DNA from: an uncultured Prochlorococcus sp. | GTDB lineage: Bacteria; Cyanobacteriota; Cyanobacteriia; PCC-6307; Cyanobiaceae | DNA length: 64,000 bases | Direction of reading: 5' to 3' | Assembly (NCBI RefSeq): GCF_902522795.1 | Contig: NZ_CABYWZ010000003.1 | Location: forward strand, 1 to 64,000 | Shown here: one piece after another, positions 1,296 through 7,456 of the stretch | Layout: every line of letters begins with the position of its first letter | Position numbering within the stretch: position 1 is the first letter of the stretch | The notes under the pieces: generated by a model | What the model was told of the DNA's origin: nothing | Database searches by the model: none | The model's input: only the letters and a program-made list of their open reading frames with translations | Position numbers and translations under genes: made by a program

Positions 1296-2081
1296 TTATT
1301 TGCGAAGCTTAGGAATCAAAAGAGAAGCGACACAAATAACACTAATTGCAGGTCCAGGCGACAAATTAAAAACTATAGAGAGAATAAAGCCAAGAAGTGA
1401 GATACATAATCCAAAAAATGAAGACCTCATCATTGCAATTCTTAAACTCTGAGCCTTATTTAGCCCTAACAGAGTTGGGGTAGAAAGAAGAGCAATAACA
1501 AGAATCACTCCCACTGCTGACATTGAACTAACAATTACTAATGCCGTTGTAAAACTTAAAGCAAGATTTAATAAAGAAACGTTTATACCACTCGCGGATG
1601 CACCTTCTGGATCCAAACCCACATAAACAACCTTTTCATATCCAAAAGTCATTAAAAGTATAAATACTAAAAAAGCAATTATTGTTCTTAGTAAATCTCC
1701 AAAATTTGCTGTCAATAAATCGCCAAATAAAACTGCCTCTAAATCAATCCTTATTCCAAGAAGAGGGATAATAAGGACTCCAAATCCAAGCATTCCAGCA
1801 AGAATAGTATTCATAACTGCTTCATAGTTTTCACTTTTTCTATTAGTTAAACTTTCCGCAATCACCGAGCCTAAAAGACCACTGATAACACCACCAATTG
1901 AAGGATGAATTCCAAGAGCTAAGGCTAAAGCAAGTCCAGGTAAAACACAATGAGAGATTAAATTAACTTGTAATAATCTCTTATGAGTTATTAATACAGT
2001 TCCCATTGCTGGACATAAGATCCCTGAGAAAATAGTTATTATTAATGGGACAAGCCACCAGTTGTTATTAATAAAAGACAT
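1296..2081 (-). CDS. znuB: Zinc ABC transporter permease ZnuB
   Basis: A 261-aa integral membrane protein of the ABC-3 family (ZnuB/MntB), the channel subunit for periplasm-to-cytoplasm zinc uptake. It has about seven or eight hydrophobic segments. Family features are the ISHCVLPG segment near residue 43, VLFGDLL near 117, and a late SAVGVILVIALLSTPT segment. Length is normal. It is divergent from the Zur-type regulator and separated from znuC by that gene, so ATPase and permease are not in one operon. ABC-3 permeases also carry manganese; zinc is inferred from the neighbours (Zur, His-rich ZnuA, COG0523). Confidence 0.9.
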   Translation of the reverse strand: MSFINNNWWLVPLIITIFSGILCPAMGTVLITHKRLLQVNLISHCVLPGLALALALGIHPSIGGVISGLLGSVIAESLTNRKSENYEAVMNTILAGMLGFGVLIIPLLGIRIDLEAVLFGDLLTANFGDLLRTIIAFLVFILLMTFGYEKVVYVGLDPEGASASGINVSLLNLALSFTTALVIVSSMSAVGVILVIALLSTPTLLGLNKAQSLRIAMMRSSFFGLCISLLGFILSIVFNLSPGPAISVICVASLLIPKLRK

Positions 2082-2137: not shown

Positions 2138-2533
2138 ATGGTAACTAAGTCCGACATTACCAAAAGACAAGAACAACTTCTTGAAGAACTTAATAAATGT
2201 GAGGATGAACTGAGCGGTCAAGAGTTGCATAGACAATTGATAGAAAGCGGAAAAGCTATGGGATTGACAACTGTTTATAGGAATCTTCAAGTTCTGATAA
2301 AGCATGGATTAATACGTTCTAGACATCTCCCAACTGGAGAGGTTCTTTACACTCCTGTAGATAGAGACATTCATCATTTGACCTGTGTTCAATGTGGTGA
2401 GACATCAAAAATGGAAGGTTGCCCCGTAAAAGATATTCATACACCCAAAACAAATCCAAAGAAATTCCAATTGTTGTTTCATACCCTCGAATATTTCGGG
2501 CTTTGCCAAAACTGTTATCAAGCTCAGAATTAA
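2138..2533 (+). CDS. zur: Fur-family zinc uptake regulator Zur
   Basis: A 131-aa Fur-family repressor. The N-terminal winged helix has the recognition-helix sequence TTVYRNLQVL (residues 44-53). It is followed by the metal-binding HHLTCVQCG (HH 79-80, Cys 83 and 86) and a second CQNC pair (Cys 123 and 126) that forms the structural zinc site. Its position among znuB, znuC and znuA makes a zinc sensor (Zur) more likely than an iron or peroxide sensor. It probably represses znuCA, and perhaps znuB and itself, when zinc is sufficient. It is convergent with znuC, 13 bases apart. Confidence 0.85.
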   Translation: MVTKSDITKRQEQLLEELNKCEDELSGQELHRQLIESGKAMGLTTVYRNLQVLIKHGLIRSRHLPTGEVLYTPVDRDIHHLTCVQCGETSKMEGCPVKDIHTPKTNPKKFQLLFHTLEYFGLCQNCYQAQN

Positions 2534-2546
2534 AAAGGAACATTTT

Positions 2547-3317
2547 CTAATCACAGAAATTATTTTCCTTTATAGAATTAATGTTTATTGCATCTAATTT
2601 ATCTTTTATTAGATCAGGACTACCAACTGCCAAAACACTTTTATCAAGAACTATTACTTGATCATAATTATTTAGAGACTCGCCCCAATCATGACTACTT
2701 ACGAGCAAAGAAAGACCAGCATCTGCAAGTTGACGAACAATTTTTAGAAAATCCTCTTTTGCGGGGGGATCCAATGCCGCACAAGGTTCATCCAGAAGAA
2801 ATATTTTTGCCGGAGACATAAGAGTTTTTGCTAATAGAGCTCTTTGTTGCTGTCCTCCTGAAAGAGAATCGAGTCTTCTATTAGCCAAATTTGCAATCCC
2901 TACTCTTTGCAGTGTAGCCTCTAATTCACAACATTTATTAATCCAAGAATTAGGATATGCTAGAAGAGTTTTGATTTGAAAGGGGTTATTACTTCTTGAT
3001 TTTGAATACTTAATTTGACCAAGAGATACCAATTTTTCAACTGTAATTGGAAACTTCCAATTCATAGAACTTCTTTGAGGCATAAGTGCCACTAGAGATC
3101 TAGATCTATATAAATTTTCACCGTCAATTTTTATTTCGCCTACATCTGGAGTATTTTGTCCTTGCAAAATTCTCAAAAGAGTTGATTTACCTGCCCCGTT
3201 TGGACCAACTAACGCTGTTAGAGTTCCAGGCTTAATCTCAACCGATACCTTGTTTAAAACTGGCTTACTTTTTTTGGTGTATGCAAATGTTAAATTTTCA
3301 GCGACTAAAGTAGCCAT
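2547..3317 (-). CDS. znuC: Zinc ABC transporter ATP-binding protein ZnuC
   Basis: A 256-aa ABC ATPase powering metal import with ZnuB. It has Walker A GPNGAGKST (38-46), a Q-loop near PQRS (80-83), signature LSGGQQQR (152-159), Walker B IFLLDEP (172-178) and H-loop His209. A segment at about 105-130, before the signature, is longer than in minimal ZnuC proteins. The gene is divergent from znuA across a 136-base spacer carrying a Zur-like operator, so both are probably controlled together. Substrate is inferred from context. Confidence 0.9.
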   Translation of the reverse strand: MATLVAENLTFAYTKKSKPVLNKVSVEIKPGTLTALVGPNGAGKSTLLRILQGQNTPDVGEIKIDGENLYRSRSLVALMPQRSSMNWKFPITVEKLVSLGQIKYSKSRSNNPFQIKTLLAYPNSWINKCCELEATLQRVGIANLANRRLDSLSGGQQQRALLAKTLMSPAKIFLLDEPCAALDPPAKEDFLKIVRQLADAGLSLLVSSHDWGESLNNYDQVIVLDKSVLAVGSPDLIKDKLDAININSIKENNFCD

Positions 3318-3416
3318 TAATTAATCTTTTAAAAAAGTCACTTTACAAGCTTACCAATAATACAAGTTGCGTATTATTTTCATAACATTTGATACCTTTA
3401 CTTGTCAGAAACAATG

Positions 3417-3433
3417 AAAATGATTATCATTTT
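3417..3433. promoter_or_regulatory. Putative Zur operator between znuC and znuA
   Basis: AAAATGATTATCATTTT is a perfect 8-1-8 inverted repeat in the divergent znuC-znuA spacer. It resembles the AT-rich TGATnATCA-type boxes bound by Zur/Fur proteins, and zur lies next door. It ends 20 bases before the znuA ATG, where a bound repressor would block the znuA promoter or its early transcript. Binding is inferred. Confidence 0.7.
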
Positions 3434-3453: not shown

Positions 3454-4968
3454 ATGTCAATTTTTAAAAGACTTTTAGCAAGTAAAAAAGGTTCGAGTAA
3501 GTCAATTATTAAAAATTCTGTAATCGCTGGAACGATTATATTTTCTGGTTTTGGGCAGGATGTTATGGCAAAAGGAAAGTCATATGTAGCAGTAGAACCA
3601 CTAGTTTGTGATTTAGTTAAATCAATTGCATTACCATCTGACGAAGTTACATGCTTAGTAGATAGAAAACAAGATGTTCATGACTTAAAGATCAATCCAA
3701 GGCAAGCTCAATTACTAAATAGCGCAGATAAAGTATTTACTCTTGGTAAAGAAATGACTCCAAGTATGAAAAATTGGGAAAATAAAAAGAATACTGTTGT
3801 TATAGGTGTTAGTGCAATAGACGTAGATGATCATTCTGATCATGGAGGACATGACGATCATTCTGAACATTCAGCTAAAGTGGATGATCATTCTGATCAT
3901 GGAGGTCATGATGATCATTCAGACCATGGAGGACATGATGATCATGCTGAAGGTTCTTTCGAATGGGCAGGAAAATTTCAACTTTCTAAGGGTTCTTACA
4001 AATGGTCATTTGAAAAAGTAGATGGCGAATATGCTGATCCTGCAATGAAGATGGTGATTCTCAAATCTAATGACATAGAAGGGGCTGAAGATTTAGCCAA
4101 AGAATTATTAGGATCTAAAGACTCAATAAGCAGAAAAAATGATGGTACTTTGATAGCAAGTAATAAAGCTTTTGTTCTTAACTTTGATCAAAGAAAAGAA
4201 AGTACTGTTTTTAACGTGGATATCAAAGAAGATGGTCAATATATATTTTTTACTGAACACATGCCTTTTGAGTTTGAAGCAACTCAACACTTTTTTAAAG
4301 AAGTTTCAAATAGTGATGTAGAACCAATTGCACAAGTTCCAGACGAAGGAGAGGGGCATCATCATCATGACCATGGAGGTCTTGATCCACATGTATGGCA
4401 TGATCCGCATAACATCATAAAAATGGGAGATCTTATAAGCAAAAGTTTAAAGAAAGATATTTCAGTTTTTAATAGAGGTGACAGAAAACTAATTAATGAA
4501 AGATTCGAAAAAGCTGATTCTCTCTTAGAAGGCTTAGATAGTTGGATTGTCGAACAAGTAAGCTCTATTCCTGAGGAAAACAGAGTAATTGTCTCTAAAC
4601 ACAAAGCATTGGAATACTACGGGGATGCATTTGGTTTTGAAACCATTAGTTTACTTGACTTTCTTGGAGACTCCTCAAGCTTAAGACCAGACAACATAAG
4701 TTCTACTTTAAAAATGTTAGATGAAGAGAAAGTTCAGGCAATATTTCCTGAACAAATTCCAGCATCTAAGTTATTAAGGAACTTAAGTAGACAAAGTTCA
4801 GTTCCTTTAGCTTCTAATCAAATATTCGTTGATGGATTGATGATGGATGGTAATACTGTTTCAGTAGCTGTACACAACACTTGTACAATTGTTGATTCAT
4901 TAGGTGGAAGCTGCGATAAAGAATCTGGCTCCAATCTTGAGTCTGAATGGTACAAACTTTCAGATTAA
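3454..4968 (+). CDS. znuA: Zinc ABC transporter substrate-binding protein ZnuA with inserted domain
   Basis: Periplasmic zinc-capturing protein (504 aa) that delivers Zn(II) to ZnuBC. ATG 3454 is chosen; a TTG at 3433 lies inside the operator. The N-terminus is basic then hydrophobic (SVIAGTIIFSGFG), a signal peptide. Likely metal ligands lie in VHDLKINP, DPHVWHDPH and VSKHKALEYYGDAFG. Residues 127-164 hold 12 His in DH/GGH repeats, and a second HHHHDH run precedes the DPHVW motif. Between them, residues about 169-282 form an extra domain (FEWAG ... DPAMKMVIL ... FFTEHMPFEF) that ordinary ZnuA (about 300 aa) lacks. A related segment occurs in the COG0523 GTPase encoded next. His-rich loops are thought to buffer zinc; the inserted domain's role is unknown. 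Confidence 0.9.
   Translation: MSIFKRLLASKKGSSKSIIKNSVIAGTIIFSGFGQDVMAKGKSYVAVEPLVCDLVKSIALPSDEVTCLVDRKQDVHDLKINPRQAQLLNSADKVFTLGKEMTPSMKNWENKKNTVVIGVSAIDVDDHSDHGGHDDHSEHSAKVDDHSDHGGHDDHSDHGGHDDHAEGSFEWAGKFQLSKGSYKWSFEKVDGEYADPAMKMVILKSNDIEGAEDLAKELLGSKDSISRKNDGTLIASNKAFVLNFDQRKESTVFNVDIKEDGQYIFFTEHMPFEFEATQHFFKEVSNSDVEPIAQVPDEGEGHHHHDHGGLDPHVWHDPHNIIKMGDLISKSLKKDISVFNRGDRKLINERFEKADSLLEGLDSWIVEQVSSIPEENRVIVSKHKALEYYGDAFGFETISLLDFLGDSSSLRPDNISSTLKMLDEEKVQAIFPEQIPASKLLRNLSRQSSVPLASNQIFVDGLMMDGNTVSVAVHNTCTIVDSLGGSCDKESGSNLESEWYKLSD
3826..3948 (+). repeat. Tandem repeats encoding the His-rich loop of ZnuA
   Basis: A 39-base unit at 3826-3864 recurs at 3883-3921 with three mismatches. A third partial copy lies at 3922-3948. 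They encode DDHSDHGGHDDHS. DNA-level similarity suggests duplication by slippage, and the copy number is likely to vary between strains. Confidence 0.85.
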
Positions 4969-5045
4969 ATTTTTCTAATAAAAACGGTTTTCATTTCTAA
5001 TTATCACTATTATTAAACTATTGTTTATTTAGTAAAAATCAGTAA

Positions 5046-6395
5046 ATGAGCATCCAAGATAAAGTTCCCGTTACTATTCTCACTGGATTTTTAGGTTCAG
5101 GTAAGACTACTTTGCTTAATAGAATATTGAGTGAAGAGCACGGAAAAAGAATAGCAGTAATTGAAAATGAATACGGTGAAGTGGGTATAGATCAAGGGCT
5201 CGTAATTAATGCCGATGAAGAAGTGTTTGAGATGTCAAACGGGTGCATTTGTTGTACTGTTCGCGGTGATTTAATAAGAGTCCTTGGCAACCTTATGAAA
5301 AGAAGAGATAAGTTTGACTATGTTTTAGTAGAAACGACAGGATTAGCAGATCCAGGTCCAGTTGCTCAGACTTTTTTCATGGATGAAGAGATTAGTTCTG
5401 AATTTACTCTTGATGGAATTGTGACTTTAGTTGATGCTGCACATATCGATCAGCAACTAGGCAGGAGTGATGAAAGTTCAGAACAAGTGGCATTTGCAGA
5501 TGTTCTTGTCCTTAACAAAACTGATTTAGTCTCTGATGATGCACTAAATACTCTTGAATCGAGGTTGAGAGATATGAACCGAATGACTCGAATTATTCGA
5601 GCCGAGAATGCCAAAGTACCAATTGAAACAGTCTTAAATCTAAGTGCATTTGATCTTGATCAGATCCTTAAACGCAGGCCAACATTCCTTGAACCAGAAT
5701 ATCCTTTTGAATGGACAGGTGTTTACGATCTTGATGCAGGTAAATATGAATTAACGCTAGAAGAAGGACCAGATCCAGAAATGTCCCTAGTAGCTCTCGT
5801 TAACCAAGGTGAGAGTGAGGAGGAACTTAAAGATGGGGCTGAATCCTCCGTAAGACTTTATGCAGAAAAAGCTAACACTTTAGAACCTGGAAATACTATC
5901 CCATATGGAGAACATATAAATCTCAAATTAGATGATAAAGGGAATAAATCCTTCATCCTGAACATAGAAAAACCAACCAAAATAGCTTTGTTTACACAGC
6001 ACACTGCTGAAGAATTCAATATGAAAGTCATTAAAAGTGACGAAAATAAAGAGATTCCATTTAATACTGAAAGGTTCTGGCAAGCAGAGCATGAACATGA
6101 TGATGAAGTTGGCTCAATTGCTATAGAGCGTTTTGGAGATGTTGACCCAGAAAAATTAAATACTTGGATGGGAAGGCTTCTTTCAGAAAAAGGGGTGGAT
6201 ATATTCAGAACTAAAGGTTTCATAAGTTACTCAGGTAATCCAAGGCGAATAGTTTTCCAAGGAGTACACATGTTATTTACTGCACAACCTGATAAAGAAT
6301 GGGGTAACGAACCTCGTAGAAATCAACTTGTTTTTATCGGTAGAAATTTAAATGAAAAAGAGATGCAAGAAGGCTTTGATAAATGCCTGATATAG
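5046..6395 (+). CDS. COG0523 (CobW-type) GTPase, putative zinc metallochaperone, with inserted domain
   Basis: A 449-aa G3E GTPase. It has Walker A GFLGSGKTT (14-22), the metal-binding motif GCICC (Cys 67, 69, 70), ETTGLADPGP and NKTD. The C-terminal CobW_C domain (from about residue 360) is preceded by EHEHDDE. COG0523 proteins use GTP to allocate metals; next to znuA and zur, a zinc role is the natural reading. Residues about 221-330 between the GTPase and CobW_C are an extra domain (FEWTG ... DPEMSLVAL ... LFTQHTAEEF) resembling the ZnuA insert. It starts 77 bases after znuA and overlaps the WD40 gene by 13 bases, so these two are translationally coupled. Confidence 0.88.
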   Translation: MSIQDKVPVTILTGFLGSGKTTLLNRILSEEHGKRIAVIENEYGEVGIDQGLVINADEEVFEMSNGCICCTVRGDLIRVLGNLMKRRDKFDYVLVETTGLADPGPVAQTFFMDEEISSEFTLDGIVTLVDAAHIDQQLGRSDESSEQVAFADVLVLNKTDLVSDDALNTLESRLRDMNRMTRIIRAENAKVPIETVLNLSAFDLDQILKRRPTFLEPEYPFEWTGVYDLDAGKYELTLEEGPDPEMSLVALVNQGESEEELKDGAESSVRLYAEKANTLEPGNTIPYGEHINLKLDDKGNKSFILNIEKPTKIALFTQHTAEEFNMKVIKSDENKEIPFNTERFWQAEHEHDDEVGSIAIERFGDVDPEKLNTWMGRLLSEKGVDIFRTKGFISYSGNPRRIVFQGVHMLFTAQPDKEWGNEPRRNQLVFIGRNLNEKEMQEGFDKCLI

Positions 6396-7456
6396 AACCA
6401 TTTAGCCCAAGAGGCATGTTCCACGAGGGATGGACAGCTGAAGTTAGCGATTATGCCATAGCATGTGGCTGGGCTCTTAAAGGGAAACAATTTATTGTTG
6501 GCGATGTAGCAGGTGGTATTTTTGCATTCGAAGGAGATACTGGAAAAATTATTTGGAAAAAAGAAAATACTCACTCTGGTGGTCTACTAGCAATGGCAAT
6601 TCATCCAGAGGGTGAAATTTTTGCAACATCAGGTCAGGATGGAAACGTTCAAATTTGTAATTGCCACGAAGGTAAAATAATTAAAACACTTAATCTTGGT
6701 AAGGGTTGGGCAGAACACCTCAAGTGGTCTAATGACGGTTTATTTCTAGCGATAGCTTCCTCAAAAAAAGTATATGTTTTTAATGAGATTGGAGAAGAGA
6801 AATGGATCTCAGAAGACCATCCAAGCACAGTAAGTGCAATAACATGGTCAAATAAAAATGAGCTCGCAACTGCATGCTACGGCAGAGTGACATTCTTTGA
6901 CATTGTTAATAATAAAACAAATCAAAAACTGGAGTGGCAAGGATCATTGGTCTCTATGGAATTAAGCCCTGATGGAGATATAGTCGCCTGTGGGAGTCAA
7001 GACAATTCAGTACATTTTTGGAGAAGATCAACAGGAATGGATGCTGAAATGACTGGATACCCAGGAAAACCAAGTCACCTTTCTTTTGATGACAGCGGAA
7101 AATTATTAGCGACTAGCGGCAGTGAAAGAATTACAGTATGGAGCTTTATAGGCAATGGTCCAGAAGGGACTATGCCAGGAGAGCTATGTCACCATACAGA
7201 ACCTATTTCGAGCTTAGCCTTTTCAAATAAAGGTATGCTTGTAGCCTCAGGATCTAGGGATGGTTCTGTTGTTGCAAGTTTCCTAAAAAATGATGGCAAT
7301 GGAGACCCAGTTGGGGCTGCATTCGCCGGAGATTTGGTAGGGGCAATTTCATGGAGACCTGATGATTGTGCACTTGCAGCAGTTAATGCAAAAGGTGTTG
7401 TAAATGTATGGAAATTTAAAGTTCGTACTAACCTTTTTTCAAAGGGATTTAAGTAA
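6383..7456 (+). CDS. WD40-repeat protein coupled to the COG0523 GTPase
   Basis: A 357-aa protein of repeated beta-propeller blades. Recognisable strands include LLAMAIHPEGEIFATSGQDG, VSMELSPDGDIVACGSQDN, LSFDDSGKLLATSGS and LAFSNKGMLVASGSRDG, with W-near-end motifs (VHFWRR, ITVWSF, VNVWKF). About seven blades fit the length. There is no signal peptide, so it is cytoplasmic. WD40 propellers serve as protein-binding platforms. The 13-base overlap with the GTPase gene suggests that the two proteins work together, perhaps as scaffold or client adaptor. That link is inference; the fold is clear. Confidence 0.8.
   Translation: MPDIEPFSPRGMFHEGWTAEVSDYAIACGWALKGKQFIVGDVAGGIFAFEGDTGKIIWKKENTHSGGLLAMAIHPEGEIFATSGQDGNVQICNCHEGKIIKTLNLGKGWAEHLKWSNDGLFLAIASSKKVYVFNEIGEEKWISEDHPSTVSAITWSNKNELATACYGRVTFFDIVNNKTNQKLEWQGSLVSMELSPDGDIVACGSQDNSVHFWRRSTGMDAEMTGYPGKPSHLSFDDSGKLLATSGSERITVWSFIGNGPEGTMPGELCHHTEPISSLAFSNKGMLVASGSRDGSVVASFLKNDGNGDPVGAAFAGDLVGAISWRPDDCALAAVNAKGVVNVWKFKVRTNLFSKGFK

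Follow-up and report, generated by a model that had tools for sequence, protein, structure and literature searches.

The window analyzed here is a stretch of 64,000 nucleotides from an uncultured Prochlorococcus sp., near the start of which a gene for ZnuA, the periplasmic zinc-binding protein of an ATP-binding cassette (ABC) transporter, precedes a gene for a GTPase of the COG0523 (CobW/YjiA-like) group. The genes of this region follow one another in the order znuB (reverse strand), a Fur-family regulator (forward), znuC (reverse), znuA, the GTPase gene, and a WD40 gene (these three forward); the names of znuB, znuC, and the regulator are those that we presume from sequence and context (Table 1). 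By sequence comparison, ZnuA and the adjoining GTPase share a homologous domain of about 120 residues. The original prediction had noticed FEWxG, a G-x-Y step, DPxM, and FTxH...EF in both proteins and had attributed them to one domain inserted into two unrelated zinc proteins, one periplasmic and the other cytoplasmic. The motifs are indeed present in both inserts, and the homology of their sequences bears out the rest of the proposal.

Homology and position of the two inserts

ZnuA matches PF01297 in two stretches (E 5.5e-42; 144.5 bits against a cut-off of 29) and has the His-rich loop and DPHxW motif of cluster A-I substrate-binding proteins; its best NCBIfam relative is AztC, with a score below the cut-off. 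The GTPase matches PF02492 at residues 8-184 (E 3.6e-61; 206 bits against a cut-off of 20.7) and PF07683 (CobW_C) at residues 356-448 (E 1.7e-24; 86 bits against a cut-off of 22). Its Walker A residues (G19-K20-T21) and its GCxCC motif (G66-C67-I68-C69-C70) are invariant in all 33 rows of alignment A6.

In a whole-protein BLASTP comparison, residues 166-274 of ZnuA align to residues 218-324 of the GTPase with 28% identity (E 8e-6). When the whole genome of the window was searched in six frames with the ZnuA insert, the matches at E<=10 were the insert itself and that of the GTPase (E 0.0015). The two inserts reach a Smith-Waterman score of 84, against a mean of 29.7 (standard deviation 5.4) and a maximum of 63 in 5000 shuffles; the hosts minus their inserts score 32, a value reached by 396 of 500 shuffles, and thus have no similarity. 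A profile of 13 ZnuA inserts compared with one of 22 GTPase inserts, from which 13 GTPase rows whose end escaped the pattern used were omitted, gave a probability of 96.7% (P 5e-10). It is vanishingly improbable that two unrelated inserts came to resemble each other by chance or convergence: direct comparison gives 28% identity only, but a profile built from 32 GTPase inserts of other genomes, with the window sequences and ZnuA excluded, retrieves the window ZnuA at E 2.3e-19 among the window's 172 open reading frames (ORFs), and a haloarchaeal insert bridges the sets, matching that of ZnuA at E 4e-16 and that of the GTPase at 2e-16 (database size fixed at 3 million letters). Chance similarity was rejected on the six-frame search, the shuffles, the profile-profile comparison, and the GTPase-only profile. 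Nor do the profile matches split into two separate families, which had been named as an outcome that would speak against a common domain.

Relatives without the insert define its position. Escherichia coli YjiA covers positions 5-213 and 347-442 of the GTPase profile with two segments that nearly abut in its own sequence (214 and 219). In L109, a GTPase from the window's cyanobacterial family that lacks the insert, 'FLVDE' runs straight into 'HAHEHDD', and the protein matches residues 5-222 and 349-448 of the window GTPase as a single run. The GTPase insert is flanked by the G domain, which bears the CxCC metal site, and by the C-terminal domain. In two insert-less ZnuA paralogues from the window's family (L110 and L111), the His-rich loop is uninterrupted at the site where the window ZnuA, unlike these close paralogues, holds a whole folded domain; the C-terminal lobe of L110 is 84% identical to that of an insert-bearing ZnuA (L105) from the same genome. 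More generally, the insert of non-GTPase hosts lies within or adjoining His-rich stretches. The statement that normal ZnuA and CobW proteins lack the insert therefore holds for E. coli YjiA and for these three cyanobacterial proteins, but in one branch of COG0523 many proteins carry it. In one close relative (G067), ZnuA (L032) is a protein of 615 amino acids (aa) with two tandem copies of the domain, the motifs being intact in each.

Table 1. Positions of the genes, domains, motifs, and sites of the window that are discussed in the text.
Feature	Position	Strand	Basis or remark
znuB-like ABC permease	1296..2081	-	ORF of 261 aa
Fur-family regulator, possibly Zur	2138..2533	+	ORF of 131 aa; Cys-pair and His motifs
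znuC-like ABC ATPase	2547..3317	-	ORF of 256 aa; Walker A GPNGAGKS and LSGGQ
Zur-box-like palindrome TGAAAATGATTATCA	3415..3429	+	Between divergent znuC and znuA
ZnuA, periplasmic zinc-binding protein of ABC transporter, with insert	3454..4968	+	504 aa
His-rich loop of ZnuA, portion preceding insert	3829..3954	+	Sequence; loop uninterrupted in insert-less paralogues
Inserted domain of ZnuA, predicted beta-sandwich	3955..4338	+	Sequence comparison, alignment, predicted model
DPAM motif of ZnuA insert	4036..4047	+	Alignment A5
FTEHMPFEF motif of ZnuA insert	4249..4275	+	Alignment A5
His-rich segment of ZnuA following insert, ahead of DPHVWHDP	4345..4383	+	Sequence
COG0523 (CobW/YjiA-like) GTPase with insert	5046..6395	+	449 aa; Pfam matches
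Inserted domain of GTPase, predicted beta-sandwich, at junction of G domain and CobW_C	5697..6056	+	Comparison, alignment A6, model
DPEM motif of GTPase insert	5772..5783	+	Alignment A6
FTQHTAEEF motif of GTPase insert	5991..6017	+	Alignment A6
WD40 beta-propeller protein, gene overlapping GTPase gene by 13 bases	6383..7456	+	WD40 family match

Hosts, distribution, and history of the domain

The view of the insert as a module of a marine cyanobacterial zinc island proved too narrow, as the domain occurs across many bacterial phyla, in Thaumarchaeota, and on haloarchaeal plasmids; the host families themselves are known. It was present in 31 of 386 genomes drawn from the window's phylum, and in 2 of 299, 12 of 201, 21 of 240, and 2 of 151 genomes drawn from the phyla of G534, G500, G521, and G516, respectively. 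A scan of one genome per species yielded at least 592 pattern matches, at least 567 of which were confirmed by tblastn (E-values relative to the candidates only). The loci analyzed were the best 80 of the at least 567, ranked by likeness to a GTPase-type query, so that host frequencies among the other 487 cannot be read from them: a motif rule assigns 73 to the GTPases, as does inspection by eye for the remaining seven, which are partial or cut differently. By our own count, the record titles of these 80 name 14 phylum-level groups, including Chloroflexi, Acidobacteria, Planctomycetes, Verrucomicrobia, Poribacteria, and Thaumarchaeota, with the proviso that the labels of metagenome-assembled genomes may err.

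Plasmid searches matched 7, 11, and 10 records, and domain-bearing GTPases are found on plasmids of Pantoea and Paraburkholderia. Hosts of the ZnuA type occur in picocyanobacteria, a Verrucomicrobium, and haloarchaea; in the ZnuA-type proteins of Halorubrum, Haloarcula, and Halorientalis, the insert is likewise flanked by His-rich stretches. Other hosts are small His-rich lipoprotein-like proteins of the haloarchaea Halomontanus and Halosolutus and a membrane protein of Alicyclobacillus, in which the domain is flanked by two His-rich patches. The gene for the latter protein, which matched no family in Pfam (best E 0.23) or NCBIfam, adjoins genes for cation transporters and a metal-sensitive regulator. 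Viral carriage was rejected, as two scans of viral contigs and one tblastn search of phages returned no relative.

Two further observations concern gene neighborhoods and taxonomic labels. On a plasmid of Pantoea agglomerans (L102, 2386-8506), a domain-bearing GTPase gene and a WD40-like gene adjoin a divergent ABC uptake operon of the iron-chelate type, with an FrmR/RcnR-like repressor beside them, a neighborhood that hints at uptake of a metal-chelate complex. In the draw from the phylum of G500, several GTPases (L211, L213-L219, and the cut L212) closely resemble those of marine picocyanobacteria although they are filed under another phylum, and the domain of L211 groups with a picocyanobacterial one (99/65); either gene transfer or misbinning would account for them.

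Within the window's family, the two inserts occur together. Of the 151 genomes drawn, 30 carry the ZnuA insert and 38 that of the GTPase, as judged by matches spanning the insert; all 30 are among the 38, which leaves eight genomes with the GTPase insert alone. The coordinates of the 30 pairs place the GTPase gene as immediate neighbor in 23, about 3 kb away in four, on another contig in two, and elsewhere in one. In one of these family genomes (G065 C1:32608-32955), a truncated copy of the GTPase gene (residues 1-116, 93% identity) adjoins that for ZnuA, and the intact gene lies elsewhere. Several family genomes also contain stretches of about 43-50 codons that are 48-53% identical to the ZnuA C-terminus and include one or two TGA codons (G001 C20:2201-2341, G122 C3, G046 C16, G100 C21, G079 C1, G011 C10, and others); these may be either a conserved remnant or a misread short gene.

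The Verrucomicrobial genome G521 (L164 and L202) presents, in order, genes for a domain-bearing GTPase, a WD40-like protein 31% identical to that of the window, and a domain-bearing ZnuA. The inserts of this ZnuA and the window ZnuA are 46% identical and their C-terminal lobes 23%, which suggests, on these sequence identities, that the module moved between ZnuA lineages; unequal rates would be an alternative explanation. In a tree of the domain, the inserts of ZnuA fall with extracytoplasmic copies from haloarchaea and Verrucomicrobia (98/91), and those of cyanobacterial GTPases with a further GTPase insert (99/93); the bootstrap was unsettled, and L095 and L180, labelled 'other' in this tree, are cut GTPases. 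Recent copying between the neighboring ZnuA and GTPase genes was rejected, since the tree separates their inserts.

Conserved motifs and predicted fold

Invariant throughout the 35 rows of alignment A5 are Glu and Trp in FEW, one Gly, Asp in DP, His in FTxH, and Glu and Phe in xxEF. As 32 of these rows were retrieved by patterns on FEW or GPDPxM, conservation there, including that of the Asp, is partly selected in A5 and A6, but that of the His, Glu, and Phe is not. Under a relaxed rule, 138 of 160 GTPase rows have both motifs (118 fitting strict DPxM and 117 strict FTxHxxEF), 21 have neither, and one, cut at the end of its locus, has a single motif; this count takes in 12 ZnuA rows that the edge of the locus truncates and possibly one gene twice through differing cuts, and two ORFs with assembly gaps (L034 and L053) were removed before it. 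Such joint loss indicates that the two motifs act together.

At the place of DPxM, 18 of the 21 motif-less rows have a His/Cys-rich loop, for example GHCDHDHDHDHEHGGHEHHHG; in L235, the loop lies just beyond the scored segment. The second motif gives way to a stretch such as EGCGEDPLHIHV in 13 of the 18 and reads EQHGEIPLHIY in one (classes counted by eye, as the script misfiles L228). Since a loop of metal-binding type takes the place of DPxM, the sequences suggest that the motifs function in metal binding. The His/Cys-loop rows form one Verrucomicrobial clade in a tree of the GTPase host without its insert (131 rows thinned to 43; rows with non-fitting ends, including L203 and L222, were omitted). 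The GTPase of L203 (4908-6332, in G522) has a domain minus both motifs and with no His-rich loop; the same genome encodes an intact copy.

The ZnuA insert was modeled as a beta-sandwich (mean predicted local distance difference test score, pLDDT, 84.7; predicted template modeling score, pTM, 0.81), and the elements of the insert follow in the same order in the model of the full-length GTPase (mean pLDDT 84.7, pTM 0.69). Unrelated folds, the other outcome named as adverse to a common domain, were thus not what the models gave; because the two alignments draw on the same loci, the common fold is consistent with homology rather than independently proven. Compared with solved structures, the insert model gives weak beta-sandwich matches (best Z 4.6, many tied; best Foldseek E 0.038). 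None of the listed structures stands out, and novelty of the fold does not follow from this comparison of a predicted model.

Searches for a known domain had a similar outcome. At the Pfam-A gathering score, none of the 35 domain members scanned had a match (best E 0.012, to DUF7055, in two members). Profile A5 matched none of 177635 PDB sequences at E<=10, and profile A1 found nothing significant in the same database (best E 0.69, an aspartyl aminopeptidase). When whole host proteins were compared with NCBIfam, no best stretch was confined to the insert, and two small haloarchaeal proteins that consist mostly of the insert matched no NCBIfam model. A known domain was rejected on the Pfam and PDB sequence searches. 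In literature searches, mostly outside subscription journals and with supplements excluded, no description of the domain was found. The insert is one homologous, apparently uncatalogued domain in several unrelated metal-handling proteins. As no Pfam model searched matched the insert, and no NCBIfam model those two small proteins, its hosts are entered in the records consulted as 'GTP-binding protein', 'metal ABC transporter substrate-binding protein', or 'hypothetical protein'.

Possible function and relation to known systems

Delivery of zinc to client proteins is the role ascribed to COG0523 GTPases. There is about an even chance that the insert is an accessory module that binds zinc at an Asp/His/Glu site. 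This site, made up of Asp in DPxM, His in FTxH, and Glu in xxEF, would capture zinc, and the domain would concentrate zinc beside the host's own metal site, handing it to or from that site. In ZnuA, it would capture scarce periplasmic zinc; in the GTPase, it may load or release zinc in the course of the GTP cycle. The original prediction had named the conserved His and Glu as possible zinc ligands, and both, together with the Asp, are invariant in A5; that zinc is the ligand, that these residues bind it, and that it is transferred, we infer. The same prediction had spoken of a zinc sensing or storage module, and the domain may serve one of these ends, but nothing found favors storage in particular. 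A wider reading, in which a nameless mobile zinc domain with an Asp/His/Glu site has entered several unrelated metal proteins on both sides of the membrane in bacteria and archaea, has exchanged that site for a His/Cys-rich loop in one Verrucomicrobial clade, and relays zinc from ZnuA to the GTPase, is tenable but falls short of an even chance.

The ZnuBC genes, the Fur-family regulator, and the Zur-box-like site alongside fit a zinc role. The palindrome between znuC and znuA is the top forward-strand 15-mer of the window against TGANAATNATTNTCA, the pattern that we take to be the Zur-box consensus, and the exact core ATGATTATCAT is found once; the stretch ahead of the GTPase gene has no good match (12 of 15 positions of this presumed pattern). 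In Synechococcus WH8102, loss of Zur and low zinc each raise synw0970-0973, of which synw0972 and synw0973 are described as uncharacterised; the order there is znuB-znuC-znuA (parts of PMC9337993 consulted). The znuB, znuC, and znuA genes of the window agree with this order, from which synw0972 and synw0973 would correspond to the present GTPase and WD40 genes. In a scan of 80 other neighboring ORFs, our own choice among 180 of suitable size and with no background control, the family matches included further cobW (5), Zip (3), and ZnuA, ABC-3, CbiM, Cation_efflux, FUR, and NicO (2 each), the listed families being 25 of 104.

Several points weigh against the zinc module. The Asp, His, and Glu could be structural, and the predicted fold is a common beta-sandwich, as found in sugar-binding and protein-binding domains. 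The His/Cys-loop rows, being confined to one clade, represent a single evolutionary event, so that their number is not a count of independent cases; four of the 18 keep FTxH with an altered Glu-Phe part (FTGHDVPTH type), and the further losses in L203 and L222 show no His-rich loop at the place of DPxM. Cobalt and nickel genes stand among the neighbors besides zinc genes. Relatedness confounds the co-occurrence of the two inserts, and since the Fisher p-values for it and for the motif loss take no account of relatedness, they carry no weight here. Beyond the family the pair is uncommon: of 40 genomes with the GTPase domain, one, the Verrucomicrobial G521, had a ZnuA host (second matches were checked, bar a 66-position fragment in G531 that the profile did not recover). 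Moreover, two COG0523-type genes adjoining the ZnuA genes of Halorubrum and Haloarcula are without the domain.

The main rival, which we regard as rather unlikely, is a docking role: the domain would bind a protein (perhaps the WD40 protein or a client enzyme in the cytoplasm, and the permease or some other protein in the periplasm), its conserved residues being structural. Beta-sandwich folds frequently bind proteins, and the WD40 gene comes directly after the GTPase gene in the window and in 22 of the 29 loci tested besides it (23 of 30; three of the 32 loci fell outside the test), with the 13-base overlap of the window recurring in 14 of the 32. In L119, read by eye, GTPase and WD40 share one frame of 652 aa. 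However, a WD40-type gene also follows the insert-less GTPase L109, so that the insert does not tie this pair together and is unlikely to owe its presence to the WD40 protein alone; one partner common to two compartments is unlikely, and docking leaves the His/Cys-rich loop in place of DPxM unexplained.

The domain might instead be a zinc sensor: its occupancy by metal would shift the conformation of the host and thereby adjust the docking of ZnuA or the cycling of the GTPase. Its location between the G domain and CobW_C, and in the His-rich loop of ZnuA, would suit such a role, as would the joint loss of both motifs, but a Fur-family regulator is encoded alongside and the tandem-domain ZnuA of L032 is better suited to capture; we consider a sensor improbable. 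Still poorer are the prospects of a beta-sandwich that binds carbohydrates or other small ligands, similar to carbohydrate-binding modules (CBM) or the GOLD domain, and that metal proteins have co-opted, for instance as a means of holding a zinc-ligand complex or the cell wall. The structures with the highest Z do include GOLD, CBM35, and CBM4, with CBM6 lower, but all are at Z 4.6 or less and none is prominent, and occurrence in a cytoplasmic GTPase speaks against a wall or sugar role.

A domain common to a zinc importer and a COG0523 GTPase offers a testable part for the study of how these GTPases are loaded and how their subfamilies differ, and the clade in which the motifs are altered serves as a ready-made control in the search for the metal site. 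The hosts include organisms that perform much of the photosynthesis in the zinc-poor ocean.

Among described systems, the nearest in gene context is COG0523 subfamily 5, whose prokaryotic members cluster with WD40-repeat genes and znuABC, some of them with predicted Zur sites; putative Zur sites also precede cyanobacterial COG0523 genes, including those of Prochlorococcus marinus (Haas et al., 2009; PMC2770081). The window GTPase likewise adjoins a WD40 gene and znuABC, a likeness of gene context. In contrast, the consulted parts of that study describe His-stretches and neither a 120-residue insert nor a link to a ZnuA insert (PMC2770081).

Another beta-sandwich in a zinc protein is found in ZepA of Anabaena, a Zur-regulated extracellular protein with an Ig-like domain, whose gene is in some genomes close to those for ZnuA or COG0523 proteins; it differs, according to the sections of the report consulted, in its proposed ligands (His 44, 53, and 55), in being a whole secreted protein with PEP-CTERM, and in its reported absence from Archaea, differences drawn from its description (PMC10957091). 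AztD, a periplasmic zinc chaperone, passes zinc to AztC, the zinc-binding protein of an ABC transporter, but, as far as the portion consulted describes it, is a separate protein and not an inserted domain (PMC6689063). Its target is the same AztC to which the window ZnuA came closest, below the cut-off, in NCBIfam.

The structural counterpart of the GTPase is E. coli YjiA (PDB 1nij and 4ixm), whose G domain and CobW_C align on both sides of the insert (Z 18.7, root mean square deviation, rmsd, 18.9 over 278 residues for the GTPase model), but which has only a few residues where the window GTPase has about 130. The dynein-arm packaging factor Shulin (6zyx) is also among the best matches of the GTPase model me458a13bba42 of residues 1-449 (Z 17.3, 287 residues, rmsd 4.2), and the GTPase weakly matches Pfam DAAF9_2 (E 0.0032, score under its cut-off); this ciliary factor thus looks similar to CobW.

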